DNA from: Rheinheimera sp.
Lineage (GTDB): Bacteria; Pseudomonadota; Gammaproteobacteria; Enterobacterales; Alteromonadaceae
Reading direction: 5' to 3'
Length of the DNA stretch: 64,000 nt
Assembly: GCA_003543135.1 (NCBI GenBank)
Contig: DPJG01000023.1
Span: 1-64,000, forward strand
Shown: piece after piece, positions 4,413 to 60,440 of the stretch
Layout: each line of letters opens with the position of its first letter
Numbering within the stretch: the stretch's first letter is position 1
The notes under the pieces: model-generated
Seen by the model: only the letters and a program-made list of their open reading frames with translations
What the model was told of the DNA's origin: nothing
The model's database searches: none
Made by a program: the position numbers and the translations under genes

Positions 4413-5273
4413 TTACAACAAACGCTGACGGATCAAATCTCTGGCCTGCCAGCTGTAACGACCGCCGCGGATATAAGCGTGGTGTAATAAATGATACAGA
4501 TTATAAAGATCTTTCCTGTCGTTGTAATCGCTATCGAGCGGATACACCTGATTGTATGCATTAAAAAAACTGTCAGGCAAAGGGTCGAACATCTGGCTGT
4601 AGGCCAAATCTGTTTCCCGATCACCAAAATAGCTGGCCGGGTCAAATAACACCGGTACTTCCGATAAAAAGCCGATGTTGCCGCGCACCAGTTCCCCGTG
4701 CAGCAGCGCAGGTTTGGGTTGATGGCCATGCAATTGCTGGCGCACCCGTTCAACTATTTTATCAATGTCACCAAACTCCTGATGTTGTTCGGCTAAAAGT
4801 TGTAACAACCAGCCTATACGTTGCTCGGAAAAAAAAGTCGACCAATTGGCCTGCCACTGATTCGGCTGCATAGTGGCGCTTAAATAATTATCCCAGTCAA
4901 AACCATACATGGCCTGATCGTCGACCTGATGCAAAAAGGCCAGTTGATGGCCAAGAGCCTGCCAACCGTATGGATGTGCGTTGGTCATAGGCAAATATTC
5001 CAGCACCAAAAAGGATTTATCCAGAGTTTGACCCGCGCAGATCACCTTTGGCAAACGCACACATTGGCGCTGTGTCAGCGCCTGAATGCTCAGTGCTTCG
5101 GTGTCAAAACTGTCCAGCACCTCACGTTGATTCAGTTTGACAAAAAACTCCAACTCCTGACCTTTGAGGTGGTACAGCATATTGCCGGAATGGGTGGACA
5201 GCTGGTGTTTTTGCTCGATCTTAAAGTCACATTGCAATTCGGCACTGATTTGTTCTGCAAGAGCTTGCCACAT
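4413..5273 (-). CDS. Fructosamine/ketosamine-3-kinase family protein (YniA-like)
   Basis: This 286-aa protein has the APH-like kinase fold of the fructosamine kinase family. Visible elements are VKLNQREVLDSFDTEA (ATP-binding Lys46, Glu59), FLVLEYL (hinge), HGELVRGN (192-199) and FDPASYFGDRETDLA (metal-binding Asp210). The family phosphorylates ketoamines on glycated proteins or amines so that they break down. The catalytic-loop motif is normally HGDLWSGN; here the Asp is Glu194 (codon GAA, read directly). The ATG has GGAG 8 bases upstream. It probably forms an operon with the HAD phosphatase gene. Activity is uncertain because of the substitution. Confidence 0.82.
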   Translation of the reverse strand: MWQALAEQISAELQCDFKIEQKHQLSTHSGNMLYHLKGQELEFFVKLNQREVLDSFDTEALSIQALTQRQCVRLPKVICAGQTLDKSFLVLEYLPMTNAHPYGWQALGHQLAFLHQVDDQAMYGFDWDNYLSATMQPNQWQANWSTFFSEQRIGWLLQLLAEQHQEFGDIDKIVERVRQQLHGHQPKPALLHGELVRGNIGFLSEVPVLFDPASYFGDRETDLAYSQMFDPLPDSFFNAYNQVYPLDSDYNDRKDLYNLYHLLHHAYIRGGRYSWQARDLIRQRLL

Positions 5274-5449
5274 GAATAAACTCCGGTGTTGTCAGGAAAT
5301 AAAGCTGGGGATGTCAGTAGTATGGTGCAAATTTAGCCAAAGTGGAGTGGTTGTGCGCAGCAGCAACACCCTTGCCTGAGCGTCATTCAGCCAGTAAGAT
5401 AACGGCGCTTTTTGGCTGATAATTGCCCGCTACGTGCCGGTAGTTGTCG

Positions 5450-5528
5450 GTTTAACCGTTCGTATGGTTGAACACCATCAGGCATCCACTCAGATTTGAT
5501 AAAACAAGTGTCCCTTGGTATGGGCCAC
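5450..5528 (+). promoter_or_regulatory. Candidate thrS translational operator: two tRNA-Thr anticodon-arm mimics
   Basis: Two hairpins precede thrS. Hairpin 1 pairs GTTTAACC (5450-5457) with GGTTGAAC (5466-5473) around the loop GTTCGTAT, which shows CGU after U. Hairpin 2 pairs GTG-T-CCC (5508-5514) with GGG-C-CAC (5522-5528) around the 7-nt loop TTGGTAT, laid out like a tRNA anticodon loop: U33, GGU at 34-36, A37. CGU and GGU are both threonine anticodons. Hairpin 2 ends 18 bases before the ATG, just upstream of the AAGGA ribosome site. In E. coli, ThrRS binds two anticodon-like arms (domains 2 and 4) in its own leader and blocks translation. Folding was done by eye. Confidence 0.6.
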
Positions 5529-5546
5529 CACTGTAAGGAAAATGAC

Positions 5547-7457
5547 ATGCCAGTTATTACTTTGCCTGACGGAAGTCAGCGCGTTTTTGAAGCCCCTTTA
5601 TCTGTATTAGACGTTGCCAAAGACATAGGTCCTGGCCTTGCTAAAGCGACCATTGCCGGCAAAATTGACGGTGTATTGGTTGACGCCTGCGAAATGATTG
5701 ACCGTGACGTCAAACTCTCTATTGTCACCAGCAAAGACGACGAGGGCCTGGAAATTTTGCGCCACTCTTGTGCGCATTTGTTGGGTCATGCCATTAAACA
5801 GCTGTGGCCAAACGTCAAAATGGCCATTGGTCCTGTGATCGACAACGGCTTTTATTATGACGTTGATTTAGATCGGGCTATCAGTGCTGAAGACTTAGCA
5901 GCACTCGAAGAGCGTATGTTGAAGCTGGCAAAAACCGAATATGACGTTGTGAAGAAAAAAGTCAGCTGGCAACAGGCTTACGACACCTTCAAAGCGCGTG
6001 GCGAAAGCTACAAAATGGAAATTCTCGAGCAGAATGTCGCCAAAGACGACCTGCCGGGTTTGTACCATCACGAAGAATACATCGATATGTGCCGTGGTCC
6101 ACACGTGCCAAATATGCGTTTTTGCCAACACTTCAAAATTATGAAAGTGGCCGGTGCTTACTGGCGTGGTGACTCGAAAAATAAAATGCTGCAGCGTATT
6201 TACGGTACCGCATGGGCGGATAAAAAGCAGCTGGCTGCTTATTTAACCCGTTTAGAAGAAGCCGAAAAACGCGACCACCGTAAAATTGGTAAAGCTCTGG
6301 ATTTATTCCATTGGCAGGAAGAAGCGCCGGGCATGGTGTTCTGGCATAACGATGGCTGGACTATTTACACTGAGCTGGAAAAATTTGTCCGGGAGAAACT
6401 GCGTTCATTTGATTATGACGAAGTCAAAGGCCCGTTGATGATGGACCGTTCTTTGTGGGAAAAGTCAGGCCACTGGGATAAATACTCTAGTGCCATGTTT
6501 ACCACTGAGTCGGAAAAACGTGAATACGCCATTAAGCCGATGAACTGCCCTGGCCATGTGCAGATTTTTAACCAGGGTCTGAAGTCTTACCGTGACTTAC
6601 CGCTGCGGATGGCCGAGTTCGGCTGTTGCCACCGTAATGAACCTTCAGGTTCGTTACACGGTTTAATGCGGGTACGTGGTTTTACTCAGGACGACGCGCA
6701 CATTTTCTGTACTGAAGAGCAAATTGAAGCCGAAGTGGGCGCTTGTATCGACATGGTTTACCAGACTTATCAAACCTTTGGTTTTGATAAGATTGTGGTG
6801 AAGTTGTCGACCCGGCCGGAAAAAAGGGTAGGTTCTGACGAAATCTGGGACAAAGCCGAAAAAGCCCTGGCTGATGTACTGACCAGCAAAGGTATTGAAT
6901 TCCAGTACTTACCTGGTGAAGGTGCGTTTTACGGTCCAAAAATCGAATTTACTTTACACGATTGTCTGGACAGAGCCTGGCAATGTGGTACCGTGCAGCT
7001 CGATTTTTCAATGCCAGCCCGTTTAGGTGCTTCTTATGTAGCGGAAAACGGCGAAAAACAAATTCCGGTAATGATCCACCGCGCCATTTTAGGTTCGCTG
7101 GAGCGTTTTATCGGTATTTTAATTGAAGAGTACGCAGGTTTTATGCCGGCATGGTTAGCGCCAACTCAGGTTGTGGTGATGAATATTACCGACAATCAGG
7201 CCGAATATGCCCAACAATTAGTAAAAACTTTCAAATCTCACGGTATTAGAGCAACTTCTGACTTGAGAAATGAGAAGATAGGCTTTAAAATCCGCGAGCA
7301 CACGCTGGCTCGTGTTCCGTATTTAGTGGTTGTTGGCGACAAAGAAGTTGAAGCCGGCGATTTAGCACTGAGAACACGTAAAGGCGAAGACCTCGGTAAA
7401 ATGACTGTAGCTGCTTTTGTTGACAAGCTGACGACAGAAATCAAAAACCGGGTCTGA
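5547..7457 (+). CDS. thrS: Threonyl-tRNA synthetase
   Basis: This 636-aa class II synthetase has, in order, a TGS domain ([10 protein letters not shown], 1-60), the editing domain with [10 protein letters not shown], the catalytic core with [36 protein letters not shown] and LDFSMPARL, and a C-terminal anticodon-binding domain. The Cys and His residues that bind the active-site zinc in E. coli ThrRS appear to be kept. I chose ATG 5547, with TAAGGA about 8 bases upstream and the family start MPVIT. A longer in-frame reading from 5496 would run through the operator hairpins. It leads thrS-infC-rpmI-rplT and is probably autoregulated by the upstream operator. Confidence 0.98.
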
Positions 7458-7484
7458 TGATATTAATCCTTGGAGGAACATACC

Positions 7485-8027
7485 ATTAAAGTAGGAAAGA
7501 AACCGTTACCGACGAACAGACCAAATCGTATTAACGAAGAAATCAGCGTCCGCGAAGTGCGTTTGATTGGTCTGGAAGGTGAGCAATTAGGGGTTGTAGG
7601 TATTACTGAAGCCATTCGTTTGGCAGAAGAAGGTGGTTGTGATCTGGTAGAAATCAGTCCAACAGCTGAACCTCCTGTTTGTAAGTTGATGGACTATGGT
7701 AAGTTCCTTTTTGAAAAGGGTAAAGCTGCTAAAGAGCAGAAGAAGAAGCAAAAACAGATCCAGATCAAGGAAATTAAATTCCGGCCTGGAACTGATGAAG
7801 GCGATTACCAGGTAAAACTACGCAACCTGCGTCGCTTCATTGAAGAGGGTGACAAAGCTAAAGTAACGCTGCGCTATCGTGGTCGTGAAATGGCGCATCT
7901 GGACATCGGTATTGAGATGCTTAACCGGATCAAAGAAGATATGTCAGATATTGCTATCTGCGAATCTTTCCCAAGCCGTGTTGAGGGTCGTCAGATGATC
8001 ATGATGCTGGCCCCAAATAAGAAGTAA
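7485..8027 (+). CDS. infC: Translation initiation factor IF-3 (AUU start)
   Basis: This 180-aa protein is the same length as E. coli IF-3. It has the N-domain [21 protein letters not shown], the [19 protein letters not shown] linker and the C-domain [20 protein letters not shown]. The reading frame has no ATG, GTG or TTG at the conserved N-terminus. ATT at 7485 gives I(M)KVGKKPLP, aligning with the E. coli start MKGGKRV, which also uses AUU. GGAGG at 7472-7476 is 8 bases upstream. A TTG at 7470 in the same frame falls before the ribosome site. IF-3 rejects AUU starts, so the codon gives negative autoregulation in E. coli; the same is inferred here. Confidence 0.95.
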
Positions 8028-59913: not shown

Positions 59914-60440
59914 ATAAATCAGTTAGCTCTAAAAGAAAAGAAGCCCAGAACCAATCCGCATTGTTCTGGGCCTAGGGGAATGGCTCATTAACTGAGCCGT
60001 GCGCTACCGGTGGAACACTGCCAAAGTGCAGTGTGACATAAGCTTCAGTGTAGCCAAGCGCACAAAAAATGCTCAGCAGTAAAAGGTGCAACAGAGCGTT
60101 GAAAAGGTGAAGAATTTGTAAGTTTCCCCAAAGTTGCTCCCAACTTATGCAAGGGTTATCCCCAGCTTGTTCAGTGCAAGCCAATAACGGCGCGATAGTC
60201 CCTGTTTGAGATCCAAATCTAAGTATTATTTTTTATTCTGCCACGCTATTGGTTGTCTGTTTTATAATCAAAAATAATCTAAAAAAAATTTCTTAAAGCT
60301 GTGCTTCAAGCCAAACGGCAAAAATTTTTTACATACCCTCAGCGCTTCTCAGTCTAAAAATAACAGCAACTTTGTGTGTTTTGTCGACAATTGTGTTGAC
60401 GAAAGTGGTTGTAAAAGGTAAAAAGGCACCATTCATTCTG
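59914..60440 (-). ncRNA. Gene-free stretch with candidate structured RNA (about 59940-60200)
   Basis: No convincing ORF lies between tatD and prpR. Four hairpins follow each other, read on the minus strand: AAGTTG/CAACTT with loop GGAG (60131-60146), ACACTGC/GCAGTGT (60015-60034), GGCTCA/TGAGCC (59982-59998) and GCCCAGAAC/GTTCTGGGC (59943-59971). The last is followed on the minus strand by a T/C-rich tail (TTCTTTTCTTTTAG), as in a terminator. This suggests a minus-strand small RNA, but I recognise no known family. The left part, 60200-60380, is AT-rich with no clear feature. Confidence 0.3.

Follow-up and report, generated by a model that had tools for sequence, protein, structure and literature searches.

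Free and fixed positions in the anticodon-like leader of thrS in Rheinheimera and its relatives

Introduction

Which letters of a tRNA does an mRNA imitate when it offers a binding site to an aminoacyl-tRNA synthetase? The leader of the threonyl-tRNA synthetase (ThrRS) gene thrS in Rheinheimera sp. raises this question, as it carries two hairpins resembling anticodon arms of tRNA-Thr that show different triplets, CGU and GGU. The locus lies in a stretch of 64,000 nucleotides (contig DPJG01000023.1 of assembly GCA_003543135.1), referred to as the window. In E. coli, according to the sections on this system in three publications, ThrRS binds the arms of such a leader, its N-terminal part blocks the 30S subunit, and tRNA-Thr competes (PMC7373986, PMC9976931, PMC3858243). 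Yeast AspRS is similarly described, where two of these sources turn to it, as binding an anticodon-like element in its own mRNA (PMC9976931, PMC7373986); synthetase, kingdom and binding mode differ from those of ThrRS, and no homology is claimed. The original prediction for the window proposed a feedback operator of the E. coli type and considered the use of two different Thr anticodons a notable variation.

Results and discussion

Layout of the thrS leader

Two anticodon-like hairpins, as originally predicted, are indeed present in the leader, here referred to as arm A (distal) and arm B (proximal to the gene). The features of the region are:

5372..5400, + strand: probable thrS promoter, TTGCCT (5372-5377), 17 nt, TAAGAT (5395-5400)
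5450..5473, + strand: arm A, 8-bp stem and 8-nt loop GUUCGUAU with CGU at 5461-5463, counterpart of E. coli operator domain 4
5474..5507, + strand: linker between the arms, poorly conserved, counterpart of E. coli domain 3
5508..5528, + strand: arm B, 7-position stem and 7-nt loop UUGGUAU with GGU at 5517-5519, counterpart of E. coli operator domain 2
5529..5533, + strand: CACTG motif between arm B and the Shine-Dalgarno (SD) sequence
5535..5539, + strand: SD sequence AAGGA
5547..7457, + strand: thrS, threonyl-tRNA synthetase, 636 aa, proposed repressor

The domain numbers, where they go beyond what reviews give, follow what we take to be the E. coli convention. Arm A consists of GTTTAACC-GTTCGTAT-GGTTGAAC, with 8 pairs including one G-U, and arm B of GTGTCCC-TTGGTAT-GGGCCAC, with 6 pairs and a U.C mismatch at the fourth stem position, ending 18 nt before the ATG at 5547. 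An (A/G)AGGA SD sequence is common to the 15 aligned leaders of the genus, and TTGCC or TTGCT together with a TA..AT hexamer is kept, as judged by eye, in 14 of them, L015 being the exception. A consensus promoter scanner reported no promoter-like site in the leader, the candidate matching 8 of 12 letters by eye at a threshold of 9. The thrS transcript would probably start near 5407, 5' of both arms; with the promoter at 5372-5400, both arms would thus be part of the thrS mRNA.

Two further in-frame starts lie upstream of 5547, namely a TTG at 5496 and an ATG at 5520 inside arm B. The open frame comprises 639 aa, for a match of 636 residues, in 14 of the 20 full-length thrS matches of the genus, which we interpret as a stop within about 3 codons 5' of the ATG, so that an N-terminal extension is not conserved. 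An extension from TTG 5496 was rejected on this basis, and the warning in the original prediction that a longer start at 5496 would be a miscall appears well founded, this start being probably spurious. The start of thrS was placed at 5547, and not at 5496 or 5520, because of the conserved N-terminus and the SD sequence. An alignment of the encoded protein with the solved chain 1qf6_A spans residues 1-635, making it a full-length ThrRS with its N-terminal domains included; we take 1qf6 to be E. coli ThrRS and 1kog to be its operator complex.

Arm B is conserved and covaries

Located through the protein, 102 thrS leaders were compared, comprising 21 from the genus, 80 genome_contigs loci and one from E. 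coli, with two genome_contigs loci repeating genus genomes. The genus leaders represent 21 of 22 genomes, one genome having given no thrS match, and the 80 loci are the best 80 of 583 confirmed relatives, so the sample leans to near kin. Arm B is present in 101 of the 102 leaders, with 11-20 nt from CACTG to the ATG, and shows GGU in all 21 genus leaders. One leader, L073, keeps arm B with GGU in an 8-nt loop. The thrS leader of Alteromonas sp. 5E99-2 (L051), located before position 1001, has neither arm B nor CACTG and is a probable natural loss of the operator.

Across 60 distinct arm B sequences (alignment A1, which left out L073 and repeated hairpins), 96% of cells are paired and two-sided compensatory changes occur in all 7 pairs. 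The covariation score is 0.522, compared with a mean of 0.242 for shuffled alignments and at most 0.142 when the pairing is slid. Folding energies give a different picture: the 136-nt leader is no more stable than its shuffles (z -0.24) and arm B alone is thermodynamically ordinary, with 49 of 200 shuffles being as good. Thermodynamic significance was rejected as proof of an operator on these grounds. Arm B is judged real because of the comparison, specifically its presence in 101 of 102 leaders and covariation in 7/7 pairs, and not because of its energy.

Arm A and the comparison with E. coli

Folded as 5446-5477, arm A reaches -11.3 kcal/mol, a value matched by 1 of 200 shuffles. Its computed minimum adds two pairs within the loop, leaving UCGU, and these pairs are not kept by relatives. 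CGU is found in arm A of 20 of the 21 genus leaders, L015 having a different arm with AGU. Beyond the genus, arms at A's place were sought with fixed thresholds, with GU in register and a loop start 40-64 nt 5' of arm B, after dropping two repeated leaders. An arm with GU at 35-36 was identified in 43 of 99 distinct leaders, while other dinucleotides gave 0-10 and a control position gave a GU arm in just 2 of 99; the remaining 56 leaders are without a GU arm at A's place under the script's thresholds. At a looser placement an arm is found in 63 of 101 leaders, compared with 9.9 expected from dinucleotide shuffles. Within the genus arm A covaries weakly: among 5 distinct rows, two-sided changes affect 2 pairs, and 238 of 500 shuffles equal the number of covarying pairs and 17 of 500 the score. 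Confidence in arm A is accordingly lower than in arm B. The expectation that relatives keep CGU and GGU in the two loops thus holds within the genus and fails beyond it, and the compensatory changes expected along with them are found for arm B, while those of arm A in the genus do not exceed shuffles.

The E. coli thrS operator (L004) likewise places two anticodon-like arms before the SD sequence, and ThrRS is related over its full length. Its proximal arm has a 7-nt loop with GU at 35-36, is followed by CACTG after the stem and aligns without gaps to arm B, while its distal arm shares the 8-nt loop with GU. The distal arm is a longer, interrupted hairpin in E. coli and a simple one in the window, and CACTG lies 16 nt from the ATG in E. 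coli and 13 nt in the window. The triplets differ as well, the proximal arm showing GGU in the window and CGU in E. coli and the distal arm CGU and UGU, respectively. The E. coli distal arm was read by the arm scan as AGC-AUUUGUUG-GCU; in the passage of one review that deals with this operator, CGU and conserved G and U are given for both E. coli stem loops (PMC7373986), which does not agree with the UGU seen in the distal arm here. This E. coli sequence, 112 bases between the distal loop and the start, recurs with at least 99% identity in 5301 of the 5375 genomes that match it. Yeast mitochondrial tRNA-Thr1, as described in one paper, is another case in which a ThrRS deals with an anticodon loop of 8 nt (PMC4267643); it is a tRNA that reads CUN as Thr and offers a parallel to arm A for loop size only.

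Two different triplets are the common state, being shown by 37 of the 43 distinct leaders with both arms at standard spacing (21 of these 43 come from the window's genus). The difference between CGU and GGU is for this reason ordinary and not the notable variation it had been taken for.

Position 34 varies while G35 and U36 are fixed and CACTG nearly so

Changes were counted on a FastTree phylogeny of ThrRS for 100 leaders in register, leaving out L051 (no arm B) and L073 (8-nt loop). Position 34 of arm B has changed 17 times on this tree, with G in 56, C in 27, U in 9 and A in 8 of the 100 leaders. G35 and U36 are present in 100/100 leaders with 0 changes. Among the other loop positions there are 18 changes at position 37, 15 at 38, 7 at 32 and 8 at 33, and each of the 26 columns counted 5' of arm B has changed 24-50 times, compared with 0-18 within the arm. 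The CACTG motif following arm B is as conserved as G35-U36, being found in all 100 register-aligned leaders with 0 changes on the tree. We know of no role for CACTG.

These counts are most naturally explained by a ThrRS that recognises G35 and U36 of the mimic without regard to position 34. Of the three anticodon letters imitated, it would seem, two matter, and G34 would not be needed for operator binding. In the table of one review, G34, G35 and U36 are listed as identity determinants of bacterial tRNA-Thr (PMC9976931). This entry, the main published counterargument, is in tension with a free position 34, unless it is valid for charging only or for other species. In effect, these leaders are a natural mutagenesis experiment in which position 34 has passed through all four bases, and stems and second arms have taken many and several forms, respectively, with G35, U36 and nearly always CACTG retained. 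Such natural variation offers an inexpensive and direct way of testing which features of its own mRNA ThrRS recognises. A literature search turned up reviews and papers dealing with the E. coli system; none of the titles listed was a comparative survey of position 34 or CACTG, though such a survey may have been published.

tRNA-Thr genes and the two triplets

If the two arms mimicked two isoacceptors, CGU and GGU, the operator could sense two tRNA-Thr species separately. The loops do differ as CGU and GGU in 20 of the 21 genus leaders, and many genomes of the genus have a tRNA-Thr gene corresponding to GGU. The searches for tRNA genes used patterns, with ARAGORN run on selected matches and not on whole genomes. 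In the 22 genus genomes, the tRNA-Thr genes found carry UGU and GGU, and no tRNA-Thr(CGU) gene was found with two patterns; a looser CGU search gave nine matches, 0 of which are tRNAs according to ARAGORN, and the same applies to two more pattern matches in the genus, one AGU and one GGU. The window's own assembly has no exact tRNA-Thr pattern match, and its tRNA set rests on relatives. With no tRNA-Thr gene found for it in the genus, the CGU arm would not be an isoacceptor copy. Likewise, AGU stands in arm B of 8 genomes (Alteromonas and Colwellia relatives) whose pattern-found tRNA-Thr genes are UGU and GGU only; in these AGU-mimic genomes, ARAGORN confirms example tRNA-Thr genes and rejects one stray match. 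Together with the 17 changes at position 34, the tRNA gene searches argue that the pair of arms does not copy two isoacceptors, and separate sensing of two isoacceptors was rejected as very improbable.

Spread across the class

A covariance model of arm B (R1), which includes the window among its sequences, matches the window at 5505-5549 with 55.4 bits. Within the class, 115 of 369 genomes gave matches, as did 46 of the 299 genomes of a phylum sample, all 46 in the same class or nearer; the 253 genomes without a match may include members of the class as well as outsiders. The filters of both scans were strict, so the match counts are lower bounds. Of 116 class matches, 113 adjoin thrS, whose start follows the arm at a distance of 12-51 nt, or of 12-25 nt in 108 cases; for L264, L279 and L284, tblastn found no thrS in the fetched stretch. 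The 113 arms show CGU in 67, GGU in 31, AGU in 8 and UGU in 7 cases. The script used here required GU at 35-36, so these counts are no test of GU, which is provided by the 102 protein-fetched leaders. Following arm B, the 113 leaders carry CACTG (105), CTCTG (4), CACTA (2) or TACAC (2), and in one of them (L245) the best arm has just 3 pairs.

A textbook example of tRNA mimicry, described for E. coli, is extended here to numerous genera across the class. What we consider worth noting is this class-wide spread, the free position 34, AGU mimics for which no matching tRNA was found, a CACTG that hardly ever varies and a second arm restricted to certain lineages. We hypothesize, at roughly even odds, that the operator core is not an anticodon copy and instead combines two elements, G35-U36 within the loop and CACTG following the stem. 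The element would be old and class-wide (Gammaproteobacteria in GTDB's sense), with position 34 drifting through all four bases, including an A34 without a found tRNA-Thr counterpart, CACTG serving the N-terminal domains of ThrRS or the ribosome as an unrecognised contact, and a second arm added in particular lineages.

Two arrangements were observed among the class loci. In L258 (352-426, minus strand), two arm B elements, both with CGU, stand in tandem before one thrS, representing a natural duplicated operator. Of 29 scanned loci (L139, L141-L168), 19 have a tRNA-Val(GAC) gene in the sequence fetched around thrS; in many, this gene directly precedes a short leader that leaves little space for arm A.

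Proposed mechanism and alternative readings

With high confidence, the thrS leader is a translational operator like that of E. coli, to which ThrRS would bind. This part of the original prediction is supported by the conserved, covarying proximal stem and by the GU kept in the loops, and is very probably correct as far as sequence comparison can tell. The sequences directly show the two arms and their conservation, the compensatory changes of arm B and the freedom of position 34, while binding, dimer symmetry, repression and competition are modelled on E. coli. With ThrRS in excess over free tRNA-Thr, the dimer would grip both arms with its two anticodon-binding domains, contacting mainly G35 and U36 of each loop, and its N-terminal domains would keep the 30S subunit off the SD sequence and AUG just 3' of arm B. 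A rise in free tRNA-Thr would compete ThrRS off the leader and translation would resume. Position 34 of the mimic would go unread, so that CGU, GGU, UGU and AGU would be interchangeable.

It could alternatively be proposed that the leader is mainly an SD-sequestering RNA switch in which, when the RNA is free, the CCUUG segment of arm B is base-paired to the SD region, the arm being the alternative form. This pairing is in fact the predicted minimum-energy structure in the window (-8.7 versus -7.3 kcal/mol for arm B over 39 nt, with an arm B probability of 0.07), and for 34 of 100 leaders, including many genus members, the predicted probability of arm B is at most 0.5. However, the other 66 leaders favour arm B, several clades lack the required CCUU when the alignment is inspected by eye, and covariation, which was scored for the arm B pairing only, strongly backs arm B. 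A switch as the main function therefore appears highly unlikely, though the SD-pairing hairpin may compete with arm B in free RNA of the genus.

A transcription attenuator or T-box-like leader, which a structured leader before an aminoacyl-tRNA synthetase gene could bring to mind, was rejected as having a negligible chance of being correct, given that no terminator-like site was found in 5270-5560 and that a search of 5300-5600 gave no Rfam family with E values up to 10. As the leader had no match in the Rfam copy searched, the covariance model of the proposed operator could serve for annotation.

Other features of the window

E. coli infC starts with AUU. In the window, infC, located 3' of thrS, can similarly begin with ATT (AUU) at 7485 behind GGAGG, while the default ORF list gives TTG at 7470 instead. 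An SdsR/RyeB sRNA was identified at 59931-60078 on the minus strand with 62.9 bits, and the antisense SraC/RyeA on the plus strand of the same interval barely passes, with 37.7 against a threshold of 37.
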